A model generated the notes under the pieces. The model saw only the letters and a program-made list of their open reading frames with translations. It was not told the DNA's origin and did no database searches. From Clostridiales bacterium (lineage in GTDB: Bacteria; Bacillota; Clostridia; Christensenellales; Aristaeellaceae), in the NCBI GenBank assembly GCA_012523405.1, contig JAAYIN010000089.1, positions 1 through 43,176 on the forward strand: a stretch of DNA of 43,176 nucleotides, written 5' to 3'. Both the position numbers and the translations under genes were made by a program. Below are positions 15,509 through 41,748 of the stretch, piece after piece (the stretch's first letter is position 1; every line of letters starts with the position of its first letter).

Positions 15509-16171
15509 ATGTCCATAGGGATGATTCTCCTTACGGTGGTAGCTATTCTGGTATTCTTTGGGGTTGCGCAGCGTGTGCTTGATAAACTGCACCTGAGTGA
15601 TCGCATGGCGCTTTTACTCATTGCGCTCATGTTCTTTGGTACTCTCATTCCAAACATCGACATTGGTAATGTCTCCATTAGTCTTGGCGGCGCAGTGATT
15701 CCCCTTGGCGTAGCAGTGTATCTGCTGATCAAGGCGGGCACAGGCAAGGAGCGTTTGCGTGCATTGATTGGGTCTGTTGTCACAGCAGGCATCATCTATG
15801 CCCTATCTGTATTCCTGCCGGACGAACCCGAAAACATGCTCATTGACCCCATGTACCTTTATGGGATCACAGGCGGTATCATCGCTTATCTGCTGGGCAG
15901 ATCAAGGCGGGGTGCGTTCATTTGCGGCGTAGTGGGTATCATGCTGGCAGACACAGCTATGGCTATTGTAAACTGGACAAACGGTATTAATCAGCCGCTG
16001 GTTCTAGGCGGCGCGGGTATCTTTGACGCGATTATCATCAGCGGGATCATCGGTGTCGTGCTTAGCGAGCTGGTTGGCGAAATCATCGAGCGCTTCGCAC
16101 GTGGCAACGACGGACCGGCTCATAGCGAAATCAAAACACCTGTTAGCAAAGGGAGAATGAACGATGAATAA
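15509..16171 (+). CDS. DUF1614 family multi-pass membrane protein
   Basis: A 220-residue protein with about six hydrophobic helices. It begins MSIGMILLTVVAILVFFGVA, then shows RVLDKLHLSDRMALLLIALM, a helix-breaking PNIDIGNVSISLGGAVIPL segment, and a C-terminal stretch GVVGIMLADTAMAI followed by GGAGIFDAIIISGIIGVVL. This matches the DUF1614 pattern of Clostridia; the function is not known. I chose the ATG at 15509 because AAGGGATG precedes it; an ATG 18 bases upstream lacks a ribosome binding site. The 3' end overlaps spoIIP by 8 bp, so the two are translationally coupled, which hints at a role in the sporulating cell envelope (inference). Confidence 0.82.
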   Translation: MSIGMILLTVVAILVFFGVAQRVLDKLHLSDRMALLLIALMFFGTLIPNIDIGNVSISLGGAVIPLGVAVYLLIKAGTGKERLRALIGSVVTAGIIYALSVFLPDEPENMLIDPMYLYGITGGIIAYLLGRSRRGAFICGVVGIMLADTAMAIVNWTNGINQPLVLGGAGIFDAIIISGIIGVVLSELVGEIIERFARGNDGPAHSEIKTPVSKGRMNDE

Positions 16172-17321
16172 GCGCAGTCTATTTGCACTTCTTTTACTGC
16201 TGATCATGCTGCCATTGGGGGCATTAGGTGAAGAAGCGGTAACGGAAGAAATCTATACCATTTCAGATGAACAGGGAAATGTCATCACCATGTATCTTGG
16301 TCAGTGTGATGCGGGTGACGAGTACATCAGTACAAATAACAAATACTACCGCGTCAAGTCGGTAGATGAAAGCCAGAAAACTGCGATTTTCGAGTTGATT
16401 GGCGACGCAGAAATGCCTGATGTGTCGTGGCTTGACATGACAGACAATAGCCTTGCGGTTAGTGCCGTTGGCAACAAGAAGGTCGCCATGTACTGCACGC
16501 ATAGCGACGAGAGCTATATCACAGGCGACGGCACAGAGAGCATTGAGGCTCATGGCGGCATTTATGATATCGCAAAAGCTCTTGCGACCGAACTTGAGGG
16601 GCTTGGCGTAACGGTCGAGCGAAGCGATGCACTGCATCACCCCCACGACGCAGGCGCTTATCGCCGAAGCAGACAGACCGCCGTGCAGCTTCTGAAAGGC
16701 CAACCCAACGCGATCTTTGACCTTCACCGCGACGGCATTCCCAATCCTGAGGAATACGCGGTGACTATCGGCAATGAAAAAATGAGTAAAATTCGCTTGC
16801 TTGTCGGCAAGGGGAATCAAAACAAAGAAGCCAATCTCAGCTTTGCAAAACAAATCAAGGCCGTTGGCGATAAGCTCTACCCCAATCTCATCAAAGACAT
16901 CTACATGGGCAAGGGCGCTTACAACCAAGACCTTGCGCCCAGAAGCGTCTTAATTGAGTGCGGAACGCATACACTATCTAAAGACCGTGTGCTTGCCTCC
17001 ATCCCTTTGCTCTCCGAAGTTCTTTATAAAGCGCTCTATGGCGGCATTACAGGTTCTGCGGGAGCTAGCGATGTAGGCGGGGGCGGCAATCAAAAAAATG
17101 CCAAGGCAGCGAATGTGACCGCTGCACCGGACGCAGCAGGCGCTGCCGAGAGCAACAAGGGTTCAGGCGCCATTGTATGGCTCATCATTGCATTGGTTGT
17201 AGGTATCGGCATATTCGCTTTTCTCTCCACAGGCGGCAAAGGCGGCATGCATAAATTTGGTCGAAGTTTCAGCGAAATGTCGGGCGGATTATTTGGTAAG
17301 AAGCCTCCTCGGGACAAATAG
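16164..17321 (+). CDS. spoIIP: SpoIIP-family sporulation amidase/endopeptidase
   Basis: Peptidoglycan amidase/endopeptidase; in B. subtilis SpoIIP works with SpoIID and SpoIIM to drive engulfment. The 385-residue protein has an N-terminal signal peptide (about 1-21, ending GALG) and a beta-rich segment (25-100). The amidase domain (105-295) has MYCTHSDESY with His113, IFDLHRDG with His188, and SVLIECGTHT with Glu265, corresponding to the zinc and catalytic residues of the family. A Gly/Ala/Asn-rich linker (294-334) leads to one TM helix at about 336-355 and a basic tail. B. subtilis SpoIIP is anchored at its N-terminus, so the C-terminal anchor is unusual. SpoIID and SpoIIM are not in the window. 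The start lies inside the end of the DUF1614 gene. Confidence 0.88.
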   Translation: MNKRSLFALLLLLIMLPLGALGEEAVTEEIYTISDEQGNVITMYLGQCDAGDEYISTNNKYYRVKSVDESQKTAIFELIGDAEMPDVSWLDMTDNSLAVSAVGNKKVAMYCTHSDESYITGDGTESIEAHGGIYDIAKALATELEGLGVTVERSDALHHPHDAGAYRRSRQTAVQLLKGQPNAIFDLHRDGIPNPEEYAVTIGNEKMSKIRLLVGKGNQNKEANLSFAKQIKAVGDKLYPNLIKDIYMGKGAYNQDLAPRSVLIECGTHTLSKDRVLASIPLLSEVLYKALYGGITGSAGASDVGGGGNQKNAKAANVTAAPDAAGAAESNKGSGAIVWLIIALVVGIGIFAFLSTGGKGGMHKFGRSFSEMSGGLFGKKPPRDK

Positions 17322-34490: not shown

Positions 34491-36392
34491 TTATTCCTCC
34501 ATCAATGCCGCTTGAGGAATAAACAAACGGCAAACCTTTTCTTTGTACATTGTCTCGATATAAGCCCAGTCATTGCCCATAAATGCCAGCAACGTAACTT
34601 CGGTACCCTCGCTCAGTTTAACAAAAGTTGTTTTGCCGTTGATTGGATCATCTGTTGATTTTGCGCTCTTTGTCAGCGTGATTGGAATGGATGCAAAGCC
34701 AAGATGTGCTACATTCTCAACATCTTCAAGCGATGCTGCATCAATATAGCCAATCCTGCCGCGCGACCCGTCTCCAATCGAGTATGCAACAAGTGCCCAA
34801 TCACCCTCAACGCCATAAATACTAACCGTTTCATCGGTTGTTACCTGTGCTTTGCTTGCGCGATATGCGTCTGCATCAGGCGCAGTATATACTTTCTCCG
34901 TCTGAATATTCTTAAACGCCACATCACTTAATGCCGCCAGATTGGGAGCCTGCGAACGCGCAACCTCGTAGGGCGAGAGGGTCGGGGTTGGCGATGGTGA
35001 CGGGGATGGCGAGGGCGAGAGAGTCGGGGTTGGCGATGGGGAGGGCGAGGGCGAAGGCGTAGGGGTCGGCGTAGGCACAGGCGTTGGCGAGGGCGTAACG
35101 AACTCTTCCGGAGCCACAGCCTCACCTTGTCTGTTGAGCACATAGCCCTTTGCAGCAGCGTCCGCCTCACGAAGTGTAAATGCACTGTCGCTGCCGATTT
35201 CAAGCTCGCCATTCATGATCGAGCTTTGAATATTTCCCTCTGTGACAGTATAGTCGCTCACAGACACCGTTAGTAACTTGCCGTCCTCCGTAAATTGATA
35301 ATACACTCGACCATCTGTACCAAGTTCTTTCCATAGTCCATGGGTTAGCACATCAACGATGACCGCATCGCTCGCTGCCAGAGGCATCGGTGTGGGAGTA
35401 ATCACAGCTGGCAGGGCAAAGCCTGGATCCAGCGTAGCTGCTGCTTGTGGTTCCTGTATCGCATCAACTATCGGCTCTTGGGTGATCACTGGCTCCTGGG
35501 TGACAAGCGATTCTTGGGTCACGACCGGGTCCTGGGTCACACTCGGTTCCTGAGTTTGCACTTCATCGAGCTCTTCAAGTTCCATTTCCTCATAATCGTT
35601 AAATACAGGCTCATCCTCTTGCACTTCGTCAAGCGGCTCATCTGCCTGCTCAGGCAATTGCGCCGCTTCGCTTGTGAGCAAGGAAGATTGGGTAAGACTC
35701 AGTTCATCCCATGTTGAATCGATGGTTACACCATTTGTGCTAATCACACCTGCGGCATAGATACATCTGAAATGACTGCTTGTGATATAGTACGAACCCG
35801 GCATGGGCATTGCAGAGCCATCGGCAATGTCATTAAGCTGGATTCCAAGCTCTGTTGCTTTCGCAAAAGCGATGTCCTTGATAGTTGCTTCAACGTCTTC
35901 CTTAGATTCTACAAAAAGCTCGTTTACAGCAACGCTGCGCTTGTTTTGCAGGTCGAAAATGCCATAGATGAGCGCAGTTTCATACGTTGATGCATTTGCA
36001 GCCTGATTGCGAACGCTTGCCTCAATGGAAAGTATGTTCGGAAAATCATTGTTGGCAAAATAGCCGCCGCGAATCATGTCCTGCTTGCCCTGTGCATAAT
36101 CAGCCTCATCGCTTGACATCTGACCAATTTTGCGCATGGCAAGCATCAGTTGAGTGATCCTGCTATCTAGTAGTTGCTTGAGCGTCTCATCCTCTGTCTC
36201 AAAGGTTGGATAGTCCATCGATATCTTCTGTTTGCCTTCTATCACCGTTTGGTGATTTCGGATTACAGTCAATCCATCCATTTCAATATCCACTTCAGTC
36301 TGTATCTGATCTGTGCTTTGCGCAAAGGCAAACAAGGGCATTAGCATACATATTATCAAGAAGATCGCACATAAACGTTTTTTCATTTTCAT
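34491..36392 (-). CDS. secreted protein with DUF3298-like domain, Pro/Ser/Thr linker and two SH3-like domains
   Basis: A 633-residue exported protein of unknown function. It has a signal peptide (about 1-25, ending LFAFAQ) and a domain of about 200 residues that resembles the RsiV/PdaC DUF3298 fold (EASVRNQAANASTYETAL, VNELFVESKEDVEATI, SYYITSSHFRCIYAAGV; moderate confidence). Next are an acidic stretch, a repeat of T-Q-E-P/D-x-V units, and a beta-rich segment around GLWKELGTDGRVYYQFTEDG. A long Pro/Ser/Thr linker with a 14-residue repeat follows, then two bacterial SH3-like domains (EKVYTAPDADAYRASK..., VEGDWALVAYS and GNDWAYIETMYK). SH3 domains outside the cell usually bind peptidoglycan or peptides. 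The start follows GGAGG. It lies 12 bp after the repeat protein and 1 bp before the AAA+ gene. Confidence 0.82.
   Translation of the reverse strand: MKMKKRLCAIFLIICMLMPLFAFAQSTDQIQTEVDIEMDGLTVIRNHQTVIEGKQKISMDYPTFETEDETLKQLLDSRITQLMLAMRKIGQMSSDEADYAQGKQDMIRGGYFANNDFPNILSIEASVRNQAANASTYETALIYGIFDLQNKRSVAVNELFVESKEDVEATIKDIAFAKATELGIQLNDIADGSAMPMPGSYYITSSHFRCIYAAGVISTNGVTIDSTWDELSLTQSSLLTSEAAQLPEQADEPLDEVQEDEPVFNDYEEMELEELDEVQTQEPSVTQDPVVTQESLVTQEPVITQEPIVDAIQEPQAAATLDPGFALPAVITPTPMPLAASDAVIVDVLTHGLWKELGTDGRVYYQFTEDGKLLTVSVSDYTVTEGNIQSSIMNGELEIGSDSAFTLREADAAAKGYVLNRQGEAVAPEEFVTPSPTPVPTPTPTPSPSPSPSPTPTLSPSPSPSPSPTPTLSPYEVARSQAPNLAALSDVAFKNIQTEKVYTAPDADAYRASKAQVTTDETVSIYGVEGDWALVAYSIGDGSRGRIGYIDAASLEDVENVAHLGFASIPITLTKSAKSTDDPINGKTTFVKLSEGTEVTLLAFMGNDWAYIETMYKEKVCRLFIPQAALMEE
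34972..35096 (-). repeat. 42-bp-period repeat coding a Pro/Ser/Thr linker
   Basis: The block GTCGGGGTTGGCGATGG recurs at 34981 and 35023, a 42-bp (14-codon) period, inside a longer GC-rich run of SP and TP codons. It codes the linker between the beta-rich and SH3-like parts of the secreted protein. Repeat number is likely variable between strains. Confidence 0.8.
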
Positions 36393-36404
36393 TCCTCCGT
36401 AACC

Positions 36405-38348
36405 TTAAAACTCGCCGTCAAGCAGTATGGGAAAGGTTGATTCTGTTGACAGTGCTACAAGCTCCTCTTGCCCATCCTTGGTTAAGAGAAAGTAATGAGA
36501 AAGCGGCTGAGGATAAGTTGCACCTGCGACTGCGTGAACCGTAAAACTTCCCTTTGTGCCTGACAAGGTGCGCTTGTCCCACTGCATATCCGACTGAACA
36601 GGCTGAATTTGATCATACTCATAGCCATACAGCTGCTCACCGTCTACAAACAATCCATACTTGCCGTTTTCAATGTTTCTGGCAACAACTGCACTGCAGT
36701 CCAAATATACATCAACCGAATCAGCAACGCATACCGCCTCTTGGGTGTTAGGAAGTAAATACAGATTACCAGTATCCATATATGCAAAAGCGCAAGCTGA
36801 GCCTATGACTTCGCCCATCGTAGCCGCACTCTTCCACTTCGTCATGCTGCCATCCCGTCCAAGCACATACAGCAAATAACGCGTTTCAACATCAGCAACA
36901 TTGCCTGTATCCACATAGGCCACTGTCTGGTCCCCTGTGAATGGGAATTGTCTTGCAAACCATAGATTGCTGATCAACTGACCTTCAAGGTTGATGTAGT
37001 TCGCGCTCAATCCATCTTCCGTGTTGATGATCGCCCAATCATTCAAAATGGGATGAAGCACAACCTTCTGTCTCATCATCTCTACTATACCGGATGTGCG
37101 GATCAAAGCCGATCCGCCCGCGTTGAGCAGATAAGGCGATTGCTTCACATATGCATATCCGCCCTCAAGCGGCATCATATCATTAGCACCCAAGCCTTCA
37201 AAATACCCAAGCAATTTGCCTTCAGCTGCAGAAAATAGATAGAAGTCATATGTTCCGTCATCTCTAGCGTTTCTGGCGATGATCTGCGATTGTGTTACAG
37301 CGTAAGTCTCCATGTCGACCGATCCGCTGATCTCCGATATTGCCGTCTGCGCCAGACCAGCCATCGCCGTGCCCGGTGCTGCATCATATCCCTTGATCGG
37401 TTCGGGCGTGACAACAGGTGTAAATGCATCATCGGTTGGTGATTGAACACCTGTGATGGTTTGGATCGCTGCCGGAATTTTATCTCGCAGTATATATGCT
37501 GCAGCTGCACCAGCTAAAACAAGCACAATCGCAAGAATCAGCAAAACACGGATGGTTCTTTTTTTTCTGCGGCTACCATGCGGTCTATCTTGTTCATCCT
37601 GTACTTGATATCCGATATCGCCAGCGGATCCAATGGATCTCATACGCGCACTTTTTGCCCATGTTGGTTCAAGCGGCGTATATACATTGCCATGAGCCCT
37701 TTGAGAAGGATCCTGCACTTGGTCATAGTCATCATTCGTATATGCTTCATCATTTTTCAGCTTGATAGGCGGCGCAAAAAATGGCTCTGCATCACCCAAA
37801 TCCGCTGCGTCATCCTTGCGGTAATACGCAGAAAAATCCACAGGCGCTACTTGCGGGATGCTCGCTTCCGATTGCGCTTCTTCATAAGCATCTGCAATGG
37901 CCTCTGTGCGCTTGATAGGCATGTAGGCACTTGCATCATAGGAAGGCTCGTCGTATGCATCATAAGCAGGTGCAGCGTCTTCATTGGGAGCATACAACCC
38001 CTCATCGTCCAAAGGCTGATCAAACGCAGCATAAATAGGTGCTTGTCCTACTTCTTCATTGGGAGCATACATGCTTTCATCATAAGCGGGCTGCGAAATA
38101 TCACTGACGCTTTGGGGATACCCCTGGCGGTTCGCATCATCATTGGGTGTGTACATAGCAGCATCATAAGCGGGGCGCTCATTCGCATCATTCGGTGAAT
38201 ATACTTCAGCTGACGGCGGCAGCTGCGGCAATTGTGTTGCCTCCAGATTCTCAGCGGGATTCTCATCCGACTGCCAGTCACGTACTGAATACAGCGTTTG
38301 CGAACGATCTGTTCGTCTTCTTCGACGATTTTCATTATTTTCAGTCAT
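36405..38348 (-). CDS. single-pass membrane protein with repeated Y-x-P-N cytosolic motifs and an extracellular beta-rich domain
   Basis: A 647-residue protein I do not recognise. Residues 1-265 are cytosolic and polar, starting with an Arg-rich patch (NRRRRRTD), then repeats of Y-(S/T/A/M)-P-N followed by D/E: at 50-53, 66-69, 94-97, 119-122, and degenerate copies at 142-145 and 223-226. PAYD/PSYD blocks alternate with them at 59, 87, 127 and 135. A basic patch GSRRKKRTIR precedes one TM helix at about 267-287. Residues 290-647 lie outside the cell and look like a beta-propeller-type fold (repeated short strands with GxxYDFYLF, AIINTEDGLSANYI, YLLYVLGRDGS). It is first of a three-gene unit with a secreted SH3 protein and an AAA+ ATPase. 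Confidence 0.8.
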   Translation of the reverse strand: MTENNENRRRRRTDRSQTLYSVRDWQSDENPAENLEATQLPQLPPSAEVYSPNDANERPAYDAAMYTPNDDANRQGYPQSVSDISQPAYDESMYAPNEEVGQAPIYAAFDQPLDDEGLYAPNEDAAPAYDAYDEPSYDASAYMPIKRTEAIADAYEEAQSEASIPQVAPVDFSAYYRKDDAADLGDAEPFFAPPIKLKNDEAYTNDDYDQVQDPSQRAHGNVYTPLEPTWAKSARMRSIGSAGDIGYQVQDEQDRPHGSRRKKRTIRVLLILAIVLVLAGAAAAYILRDKIPAAIQTITGVQSPTDDAFTPVVTPEPIKGYDAAPGTAMAGLAQTAISEISGSVDMETYAVTQSQIIARNARDDGTYDFYLFSAAEGKLLGYFEGLGANDMMPLEGGYAYVKQSPYLLNAGGSALIRTSGIVEMMRQKVVLHPILNDWAIINTEDGLSANYINLEGQLISNLWFARQFPFTGDQTVAYVDTGNVADVETRYLLYVLGRDGSMTKWKSAATMGEVIGSACAFAYMDTGNLYLLPNTQEAVCVADSVDVYLDCSAVVARNIENGKYGLFVDGEQLYGYEYDQIQPVQSDMQWDKRTLSGTKGSFTVHAVAGATYPQPLSHYFLLTKDGQEELVALSTESTFPILLDGEF

Positions 38349-38522: not shown

Positions 38523-40610
38523 CTAGCGCTTCAAATATCCACTTTTCTCCCAAAGAGCAAGCCATTCATGCAAACGGTTTAACAAATCGGCGTTACATTT
38601 GGTTTTTTGCATCATGCTGATCAATTGTGCAACCGCTTCGCCATTGGTTGTTGAAGCAAGAACCTTGCGAATTGATTTTAGCGCCGTTTTTTGATCATCT
38701 GTCAGCAGCATATCATCCTTTTTGGTGCCGCTCTTTTGCATGTCAATCATAGGATAGACAGGATCATTTTCTCCGCGGGTGCAAAGAACCACTTCCATAT
38801 TGGCAGTGCCTTTGAATTCCTCAAAAATAATATCATCCACGCGAGAGCCGGTTTCTACCGCGATGGTTGCAATCATTGTTAGGCTGCCTGCATCACGCGT
38901 ATTGCGCGCTGCTCCAAAGAAACGCTTGGGGCGGATCAACGCTGCAGGGGTAACCGTATTGGTCACAGGACGACTGCCCTGTACCAAAGAGGCCTGATAG
39001 GCACGCGTAAGCTTTGTAAGACTATCCAGTAAAATAACAACATTTCTGCCGTCCTCAACCAAACGCTGCGCGCGCTCAAGCATCGTTTCACTCACTCGTG
39101 TCTGCGTTTCAGGTGAATCTGCAAACGTCGAAGCAAATACCTCTGCCTCTACTGCTTCACTGATTTCAGTTACTTCCTCAGGTGCAACATCAATCAGCAG
39201 CATCAAAACTTCCGCTGTCTTGTCATTATGCTTAATCGCAGCACTGATCTCCTTTAGCACCAGCAGCCTGCCGCTATCAGGTGGTGCAACAATCATAGCA
39301 CGCTGACCAAAGCCAATAGGAGCAACCAAATCAACAAGCCGAATGGCCATGCTGCCTTGGTGGTCAACACTTTCTAGCACGATGCGCTCACTCGGGTAAA
39401 CGGGAACCAATTGTTCAAACCCTAAACGATCAGGATTTTCTTGCGCCTCTACCCCATTGAGTTTTTCAACAAAAAGGAGTGCTGCAAATTTATCGCCGCC
39501 TCGTTGCGGACGCGCTTTACCTTCGACAAAATCGCCTGTACGCAAGTGATAGCGGCGTACCTGTGCCACTGACACATAAATATCGGTCTTGCCCGGCAGA
39601 AGTGAACGACCACGCAGGAAGCCATAACCATCAGGTAAAATTTCAAGCACACCCTGTGCTGGTTCACCTTCGGCCACTTTAAGCAAATCGGGAACCTGTC
39701 CCGCTTCTGCTTGCTGTGCGAATTGAGGATCACGACCCATGCGATATAGATTATCGTTATAATTCGCCTCAGACGGCACTTGCTGCGGCAAGCGCGGCGG
39801 ATAACTTTGATTGTTATTTGGCGGGCGATAATTACTTTGCTGATAACCGCGAGATTGATAGTTCTGTTGGTTATTATTGCGATAACCGCTCTGCTGATAG
39901 CCGCCATAATTCTGGTCGCGGTTGCCATATTCATTACGATTCTGATAGGTGTTGCGTTGAGGTGCCGCACGGTAACCCAGACGATAACCGTCTAGTTTAG
40001 GCGCAGTTTCAGGATTAATGGGCGGTTGCTCGTGAACGGGCTGCGCGCGCTCAGGTGTTCTGCTTTGCTGCATTTCCGCATGCTGAGGCGAACGCTGCTG
40101 CAAAGGCTGGACAGGCGCGGTCTGCTGGGGTCCAAAGCGGTTGACAGTACTACCCACAGGCCTTTTAGGCTGTTGCCAAGCAGGCTTGTGCGGGGTATCT
40201 TGTCCTGCGCTGCGTGCTTGCCACGCTTGACGATATGCAGGCTTATAGCCTTCCGGTTCCTGTGGTTGGTTCCAAGGACGGAACCCAGTCCCAGGCTGAA
40301 CAGAAGTCACATCTGCCGATAGCGCTGCACCTTGAAGTTTCTCTATATTCTGTTGCTTGTCTTGGATTTCTTCTGCTTGTACTGGTTCCTCTTGGGATGC
40401 ACTATGCATTACTGCCGTGCTGCCAGGGATAGCAATACTATCATCGGCAGGCTTTTCTTCGTCTGCCTTCCAATCGCTACCCAATGCCTGCCAAAGGCGG
40501 GTAACAATCCCTTCTTTGTCAATACCACTGCCCAATTTCACGCCTTTTTCCTTTGCAAGTTTGCGTAATTGAACAACAGTTAACGCTTGCAGCTCATTGT
40601 TCTGCAACAT
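38523..40610 (-). CDS. rho: Rho transcription terminator with degenerate ATPase site and N/Q-rich insert
   Basis: Rho homolog of 695 residues, much longer than E. coli Rho (419). It has a SAP-like N-terminus ([15 protein letters not shown]), a disordered insert at about 50-305 with an N/Q/Y/R-rich core (219-277), and a cold-shock RNA-binding domain (320-385) with [15 protein letters not shown], as in active Rho. The ATPase domain (430-670) keeps [25 protein letters not shown] with Asp529, [11 protein letters not shown] and FEEFKGT. But the Walker A K-x-x-K-T is D445-S-G-R448-L449, the catalytic Glu is Val475 ([11 protein letters not shown]. coli DERPEE), and the Arg finger is Lys630 (SGTKKD). 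I chose the ATG at 40610, 4-5 nt after AGGAGG. The frame is intact, so it looks expressed but possibly unable to hydrolyse ATP normally. Confidence 0.93.
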
Positions 40611-40680
40611 GAACCCTCCTAACTTTTTCACACGATCAACTATAGATGTAAGATTGTTAAATCAATCAAAAATGGTGAGA

Positions 40681-41748
40681 CTATTTACGCGCAATGACAA
40701 CATCACGCTCGACTGCTTGCTCGACCCAATGAGAAAAATCATTGTATGGTCTATTTTCCATAACTTCAAGCCCTGCATCAGCTAGCGCCTGAGCTACATG
40801 TTTTCTACTTAGTGTATAGCTGTTGAACGATAGTGCAACTGCACCGCCGCGTTTGAGTGATTTTTCAATAGCGGATGCAAGATCATTCACGAGCTTTTGA
40901 AGTGAAGAAATTCCTTTGCCTTCTTTAGGTGCATGCTGCACGCCATAGGGTAAATCGCTGATAATCAGGTCTGCACGTTCTTTTTTCACAAGCTGATCCA
41001 ATTTTGTAGCATCCCCGTTAATGAGGCTAAGAGACCTTGTATCCCCTTGTTTCATCTCATCTGCGGACTTTGCAATGGTGTAACTGATCACTTTTACACT
41101 CTTGCCTTTTACTAATGTATGAGATAGCATTTCACGCTTATGCTTCCAATGATGAAATTTTAAGTACCGAGAAAAATAAACATCCGATTCAGTAATTGCC
41201 TTTGAATCCAGCTCAACGCCAATGGCATGGTGTCCCTCTTGAAGGGCACAAAATAGCGTTGTTCCCTTGCCGCAAAGCGGATCAAGTACACACAGAGGCC
41301 TTGTCTCTGTCGCAAAGGCCGATGCTGCCTTTGCGCAATGAAGCATCATCAATGTAAAGTCTGAATTTGTCTTTCCTTTGTATTTAAGAACCTGCGGTAA
41401 ATCATCTGCCATATAACTGGAATGATTTCGCATCAAGGGTAGCAGCGTTTCGCCTTGAATTTCTGCTGTAAAGCAAACAGATGAGTGGCGAGAAATCGCA
41501 CTCCATGCAGCCTCTGTCATATTCTCTGTTTCAAACGTGAGAAAAGGTTCATCCTGAATATTTGTTATTTCCGGTATAGCATCAATACCCCATGCCTCCA
41601 GCTGACATTCAAGCTCAATTAAGGCAAGCTTTTGAAGAGATTGATAATATCTCACATTAGCATTAGGTTTTATTAGCATTGCGTAACGCACGAAGAACCT
41701 CTTTCCATCCATCGTATTTTTTTGAATATGAAGAAGCTGATAACTCAT
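40681..41748 (-). CDS. THUMP-type RNA methyltransferase, Trm11/Trm-G10-like
   Basis: A 355-residue SAM-dependent methyltransferase. The N-terminal third (1-115) is a small alpha/beta domain, possibly a THUMP variant. The methyltransferase core has VLDPLCGKGTTLFCALQEGH (about 154-173) for SAM binding, GVELDSKAI, INGDATKLD, and the catalytic SDLPYGVQH, an N/D-P-P-Y-type motif as in guanine-N2 methyltransferases. HHWKHKREM lies in a helical insert. The family relation to archaeal Trm-G10 and bacterial UPF0020 proteins is by motif only. The ATG at 41748 sits only about 5 nt from the predicted transcription start, with no ribosome binding site; an internal ATG at 41712 also lacks one. It is upstream of rho on the same strand. 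Confidence 0.82.
   Translation of the reverse strand: MSYQLLHIQKNTMDGKRFFVRYAMLIKPNANVRYYQSLQKLALIELECQLEAWGIDAIPEITNIQDEPFLTFETENMTEAAWSAISRHSSVCFTAEIQGETLLPLMRNHSSYMADDLPQVLKYKGKTNSDFTLMMLHCAKAASAFATETRPLCVLDPLCGKGTTLFCALQEGHHAIGVELDSKAITESDVYFSRYLKFHHWKHKREMLSHTLVKGKSVKVISYTIAKSADEMKQGDTRSLSLINGDATKLDQLVKKERADLIISDLPYGVQHAPKEGKGISSLQKLVNDLASAIEKSLKRGGAVALSFNSYTLSRKHVAQALADAGLEVMENRPYNDFSHWVEQAVERDVVIARK

Follow-up and report, generated by a model that had tools for sequence, protein, structure and literature searches.

The window, by which we mean the whole 43,176-nucleotide stretch of DNA that was analysed, contains one rho gene, located on the minus strand. The longest frame of this gene (38523-40631, minus strand) opens with a GTG at 40631 and encodes 702 aa. 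An AGGAGGG sequence ends 3 nt upstream of the ATG at 40610, and we therefore prefer this ATG as the better start, which shortens the protein to 695 aa and offsets the numbering by 7. The gene, its parts and its upstream neighbour are the following:

38523..40610, minus strand: rho, encoding a putatively ATPase-dead Rho of 695 aa with an ATG start (Pfam PF07497 and PF00006; best PDB match T. maritima Rho, 4.4e-95)
40614..40620, minus strand: Shine-Dalgarno-like AGGAGGG, 3 nt before the ATG at 40610 (direct reading)
40494..40577, minus strand: N-terminal helix motif of 28 residues, with similar counterparts in the clade A sequences printed (see below) and in a number of the most strongly eroded relatives
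39663..40490 (approximate limits), minus strand: low-complexity arm, 24% Gln+Asn, probably disordered as judged by composition
39447..39656, minus strand: OB-fold primary RNA-binding domain PF07497, RNA-contact residues kept (Pfam and alignment)
38730..39344, minus strand: RecA-like ATPase domain PF00006, motor residues lost (Pfam)
39264..39284, minus strand: former Walker A motif, PPKAGKT to PPDSGRL (alignment)
39183..39188, minus strand: former catalytic Glu211-Arg212, now Val475-Ala476 (alignment)
39024..39026, minus strand: Walker B Asp265, kept as Asp529 (alignment)
38955..38960, minus strand: Q-loop Gly287-Gly288, now Asn-Thr, fixed in the aligned sequences of the window's genus (g1) and its sister genus g14 (alignment)
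38841..38852, minus strand: R-loop TGSR, secondary RNA site, kept (alignment)
38760..38762, minus strand: former Arg valve, Arg353 to Pro617 (alignment)
38721..38723, minus strand: former Arg finger, Arg366 to Lys630 (alignment)
40681..41748, minus strand: methyltransferase-like gene directly upstream of rho (Pfam), which marks the ancestral rho locus

Both Pfam domains scored above their cut-offs (PF07497, 92.9 bits versus 27; PF00006, 64.3 bits versus 29.5) and the closest solved structures were Rho proteins, namely those of T. maritima (4.4e-95) and E. coli (about 1e-90). With the full-length NCBI profiles, the protein was above the cut-off of NF006886 (442.6 versus 315) and below that of TIGR00767 (427.8 versus 509.45). 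Since one of these two cut-offs is passed, annotation pipelines probably label such proteins as plain Rho, and species that carry them could be counted as having a working Rho in surveys of Rho-dependent termination. The N-terminal helix motif is presumably Rho_N; Pfam at E 0.01 returned no Rho_N match. Between this motif and the OB fold lies the low-complexity arm of about 260 residues. An arm is also present in canonical relatives, with a median length of 242 residues, and its median Gln+Asn fraction was 0.22 in the window's genus (16 rows) versus 0.10 in the canonical rows of the family (26 rows).

Rho normally acts as a motor that uses ATP to halt transcription, and a 2013 survey by D'Heygere reportedly found that most Rho sequences keep the canonical motifs. 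The window protein resembles canonical Rho (TIGR00767; PDB 3l0o of T. maritima and 1pv4 of E. coli) in domain order, OB-fold primary site, R-loop and a conserved core consisting of an 11-residue stretch and EEFKGT, and its gene occupies the same locus as in three canonical relatives. In contrast, the Walker A Lys and Thr, the catalytic Glu-Arg pair, the Arg valve and the Arg finger are replaced. The original prediction had named K181 to D445, K184 to R448, T185 to L449, E211 to V475, R212 to A476 and R366 to K630 as changed and the Walker B Asp (D529) as kept; every one of these residues was correct in our alignment, which revealed R353 to P617, R269 to K533 and the Q-loop change of G287-G288 to Asn-Thr in addition.

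The question raised with that prediction, whether the substitutions are lineage-wide, can be answered for the genus. Among its 17 genomes, 16 rho genes were aligned, and K184, T185, E211, R212, R353 and R366 were all replaced in 16/16 rows. Position 184 was occupied by Arg, Gly or Ser, 185 by Leu or Ser, 211 by Ile, Val or Ala and 212 by Ala, Pro or Thr, while 353 was always Pro and 366 always Lys. Letters that differ between species at the lost sites are as expected once catalytic constraint is gone. All six diagnostic residues were kept in 26/26 family rows from genomes above the TIGR00767 cut-off as well as in 78 of the 80 named loci (the best 80 of the scan); the two exceptions (L104 and L114) are altered Rhos, and the residue string and ORF length of L104 are the same as those of L009 from genome G014 of the window's genus. 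In the one genome of the genus left out of the alignment (G011), rho is broken into two overlapping ORFs (contig C10, 6089-7980; L020 and L021), due to either an assembly error or a real break, and the first of these ORFs exhibited the same kind of lost Walker A as well as a DVAPED motif.

The Walker B Asp and the R-loop TGSR were kept in 16/16 rows. The new states Asn-Thr in the Q-loop, Pro353 and Lys366 were fixed in 16/16 genus rows and in 2/2 rows of sister genus g14, and as read from the aligned residues these look like remodelling more than random decay. At E. coli positions 62, 64, 66, 78, 80, 108 and 109, which we take to be the primary-site RNA contacts, all 16 genus rows carried Y, F, R, D, Y, D and K, those at 62, 108 and 109 being conservative relative to E. 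coli. We then scored positions that were at least 97% invariant in 105 canonical rows as lost when the genus majority differed. Such losses affected 0/15 positions of the RNA-binding domain, 8/12 of the ATP site (positions as given in the Rho literature) and 14/73 elsewhere in the ATPase domain (Fisher test, ATP site versus elsewhere in the domain, p=0.0016). The other altered groups had no such excess of ATP-site losses relative to the remaining ATPase domain (p about 0.7); selective dismantling is therefore demonstrated in the genus of the window alone. Median identity to L112 was 0.49 in the genus versus 0.73 in canonical family rows for the ATPase domain, and 0.57 versus 0.68 for the RNA-binding domain.

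A second, canonical rho, which the original prediction had proposed to look for, was sought by profile searches in the window's own genome and in the genus, and none was found. TIGR00767 gave one match in the own genome, which is 96% complete, and the only strong PF00006 matches besides rho in this genome were two neighbouring ones on contig C52, which look like the A and B subunits of a V-type ATPase. Across the genus, 17/17 genomes had a TIGR00767 rho match, 0 were over the cut-off (509 bits), and further matches were no better than 1e-8 except for the second half of the split gene in G011. The two single-contig relatives, G172 (3.39 Mb) and G192 (3.56 Mb), have one rho each, both altered (GKT to GKA and DERPEE to DVTPED). 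A few genomes elsewhere in the family had more than one match: G063 of the altered genus g48 had two below-cut-off rho matches (C200 16406-18412 and C225 41324-42397; 302 and 281 bits), which may represent two altered copies or a mixed assembly; G094, from a canonical genus, had one match that exceeded the cut-off and a second, partial one that fell short of it; and G186 had two pieces of one rho profile.

The altered form extends beyond the window's genus. Of 200 genomes of the family, 179 had a rho match at 1e-30 and 84 were above the cut-off. We analysed 44 below-cut-off rows from 14 genera, chosen by score; these cover part of the below-cut-off genomes of the family, some of which are fragments or borderline canonical (502-509 bits), and the residue table leaves out 12 of 30 loci returned (duplicates, fragments, one internal stop, or unchosen). 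The rows fell into clade A (g1, g14, g3, g9, g24, g26, g33, g44 and g48) and clade B (g10, g12, g15, g30 and g35). One or more of the six diagnostic residues had been lost in 43/44 rows, with L083 (g30) keeping all six. K184 or E211, whose losses most plainly end catalysis, was lost in 26/44 rows while both were kept in 18/44. By group, this loss was observed in 16/16 rows of the window's genus, 5/14 other clade A rows outside g14, 5/12 clade B rows and 0/2 g14 rows. Clade B and much of clade A thus appear milder than the window's genus, and a dead ATPase there is a candidate only; erosion of a weaker or different kind extends to 13 more genera of this family and to further families of the order. 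R353 and K181 were replaced in 32/32 clade A rows, and the P-loop lysine was kept in 2/2 g14 rows and in 14/14 other clade A rows outside the window's genus, which by parsimony suggests that the loss was stepwise, with the Arg valve disappearing earlier than the P-loop lysine that the window's genus lacks.

When the motif columns were removed before tree building, the canonical genera g19 and g29 fell next to clade B, and each of the two trees requires two changes. These trees suggest that the altered form originated twice within the family; a single clade was not rejected by the AU test (p 0.077), which allows one origin. The first tree left out 3/16 genus rows and used 8 of the 78 named canonical rows; the second left out 7/16 genus rows together with 8 rows that were long or nearly duplicates (one being canonical) and used 5 of the 78.

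Selection on the altered gene was estimated from pairs within the genus. Nine pairs with unsaturated dS had core dN/dS values of 0.02-0.18 (Nei-Gojobori type; pairs share members) and values of 0.02-0.20 for the ATPase domain alone, while two pairs, including the window's own, were saturated over the core. Ten other altered pairs gave 0.02-0.31, and three canonical control pairs gave 0.06, 0.15 and 0.36 (the last being L094-L062). This strong purifying selection on the genus Rho fits a retained function. The canonical rho of L093, L095 and L098 (3/6 canonical family loci with rho called) has the same methyltransferase gene immediately upstream as the altered rho of 14/26 loci including the window; the simple gene caller missed rho in 10/45 loci, and those were left out of this comparison. 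By this shared neighbourhood the window rho is an orthologue of canonical rho; it is vertically inherited and sits at the ancestral rho locus.

Pseudo-ATPases in general keep the fold and lose catalytic residues; the present case differs in that conversion affected the only copy in the genus, and no active paralogue was found alongside. We consider it probable that the sole Rho of this genus, having lost its ATP-site residues while its RNA-binding OB fold, R-loop and most of the ring core were retained under strong purifying selection, is a pseudo-Rho that most likely serves as an ATP-independent oligomeric RNA-binding scaffold. ATP-driven translocation is almost certainly lost, as judged from the residues and from published mutants. 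E. coli Rho E211A loses hydrolysis while its oligomers and ATP binding are unaffected, and M. tuberculosis Rho E386A loses ATPase and unwinding and does not release transcripts efficiently (PMC4499133). Because these mutants are dead and the window protein lacks that glutamate along with the two P-loop side chains, the Arg valve and the Arg finger, we infer that ATPase activity and motor-driven termination are gone. It is very likely that a selected function nevertheless remains. An RNA-binding scaffold is the most likely such function and a reasonably probable one, the chief alternative being an effect on RNA polymerase that needs no ATP; a role as oligomer, scaffold or condensate is speculative. 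The original reading as a pseudoenzyme or non-translocating Rho is supported by the genus-wide losses, the lack of a second canonical rho and the strong purifying selection, with ATPase loss deduced from the residues.

In such a scaffold, the OB folds would bind pyrimidine-rich single-stranded RNA, the Q/N-rich arm could add multivalent contacts and the inert ring would keep the array together. The array might coat or sequester untranslated RNA and perhaps slow RNA polymerase; translocation and the pulling-out of transcripts would not occur. Atypical Rhos with a long disordered or prion-like arm are reportedly covered in the 2024 survey of Rho diversity by Moreira. Bacteroides Rho shares such an arm with the window Rho, and its disordered arm drives RNA-dependent condensates (PMC13269538). 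The Bacteroides protein is an active terminator (PMC13269538), whereas the window Rho is without the motor residues. M. tuberculosis Rho also has a large N-terminal insertion and was once proposed to work without its motor (PMC4499133); its Glu386 is present and required, while the equivalent residue in the window is Val. If true, a genus-wide, motor-dead and selected Rho would separate RNA binding from the motor and offer a natural test of Rho without translocation, and the case would show the conversion of a motor into a scaffold with no active copy kept.

The effect on RNA polymerase named above would take the form of an ATP-independent terminator, in which the ring still contacts RNA polymerase and NusG and, without translocating, makes the polymerase stall or come off by an allosteric effect. 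We regard this as unlikely, though a serious possibility. Cryo-EM work of 2021 by Said and by Hao is said to show Rho trapping RNA polymerase before translocation, which counts in its favour, as does the presence of NusG over the cut-off in 28/32 genomes searched, the own genome included (17 altered-Rho, 3 g7 and 8 canonical). NusG over the cut-off was not found in G003, G018 and G039 (altered) or G077 (canonical) among these 32, and the three NusG-bearing g7 genomes have a nearly unrecognisable Rho. The inefficient transcript release by M. tuberculosis E386A Rho (PMC4499133) argues against it.

Two genome-wide comparisons addressed termination. Bacilli without Rho lose the purine bias of genes (PMC13323073). 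With longest-ORF calls, which yielded 9 to 48 kb of genes per genome, 33 altered-Rho genomes and 20 canonical family genomes did not differ in median coding purine (0.501 in 21 clade A, 0.505 in 12 clade B and 0.503 in the 20 canonical genomes; p 0.56 and 0.74). Fourfold-site purine was lower in clade A (p 0.04), where GC differs too (p 0.02). Because the canonical relatives are also without purine bias, this test cannot speak on termination. Coding purine in family f1 is about 50% even with canonical Rho, unlike in the Rho-bearing Bacilli of PMC13323073. Intrinsic terminators at convergent gene ends, again with longest-ORF gene calls, were found at 23/152 ends in clade A (15 genomes), 13/44 in clade B (4 genomes) and 18/142 in canonical genomes (16 genomes), with no difference between altered and canonical (p 0.25). 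Neither comparison points to a change in termination in the altered-Rho genomes, which counts against the pseudo-Rho reading.

Decay would mean that Rho is dispensable in the order and that the gene is being lost, the ATP site first and the rest following under relaxed selection. The broader survey has features in line with this. Among 297 genomes of the order, 243 had a rho match at 1e-15 (the matches listed include 23 family genomes) and 167 passed the cut-off; 54 were without a match at this threshold, some of which do match at 1e-12. A set of 30 order genomes was selected mostly because their scores were low or absent; 28 of them had a match at 1e-12, including 3 over the cut-off. Erosion is graded across genera, down to barely recognisable ATPase domains in g7, f14, f28 and f32. 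Several sequences from f14, f28, f32, f8, f5/g134 and f1/g7 retain one uninterrupted frame, 417-600 aa long from stop to stop, whose ATPase site is eroded; in the most extreme of them the RNA-binding domain has eroded as well. Several of L304-L321 (g7, f14, f28 and f32) keep the N-terminal LRxxA though ATPase and sometimes OB-fold residues are gone. The split rho of G011 and the faster divergence of the genus Rho compared with canonical Rho also point towards decay and, like the eroded RNA-binding domain of more distant relatives, weigh against the pseudo-Rho reading. Within the genus, however, the frame is open in 16/17 genomes, dN/dS is about 0.02-0.2, the RNA contacts are nearly invariant, the new residues are fixed and a Shine-Dalgarno sequence is present, and we consider decay improbable.

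An altered but active ATPase, in which Arg448 and other residues replace the missing lysines and glutamate, is very improbable. The Walker B Asp is kept throughout the genus, Lys at 366 and 269 conserves charge, and g14 retains GKT and DERPE; the variety at 184, 185 and 211 combined with Pro353 across the genus fits no active site, and E211A and E386A are dead (PMC4499133). A strain or assembly error has a negligible chance, as 16 genus genomes share the loss with differing letters and the two single-contig relatives also have lost residues, even though most genomes used here are multi-contig assemblies.

Returning to the ATP-independent scaffold, we lean, by a modest degree, towards a hitherto unnoticed class of Rho in which the ring motor became a passive scaffold that binds RNA, possibly forms condensates and serves as the cell's sole Rho, with no active copy kept. 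This class would have arisen more than once in one family and independently in further families of the order. Canonical Rho motifs are also present in f14 and f5, so the eroded Rhos of the order described above are probably further independent cases. In a sample of the phylum (159 genomes), 115 passed the cut-off, 16 had no match at 1e-12 and 28 matched below the cut-off. These 28 comprise the window's own match, G499 and G548 with two pieces each, and 25 with best E values of 1e-16 to 1e-21. Each of the 25 weak matches is confined to the ATPase section of the profile (about 133-392), a pattern expected of F1 or FliI paralogues, and no intact below-cut-off Rho besides that of the window was found in this sample. 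Among the matches listed from the open-access literature searched (titles and abstract starts; many subscription papers lie outside it), no ATPase-dead Rho was described.

Two large proteins with low-complexity stretches are encoded downstream of rho in the window (34491-38348); neither has a Pfam family over the cut-off, and they belong to no family common to at least 4 of the 45 rho loci. At least one sporulation gene is present in the window, encoding SpoIIP (stage II sporulation protein P) at 16164-17318.
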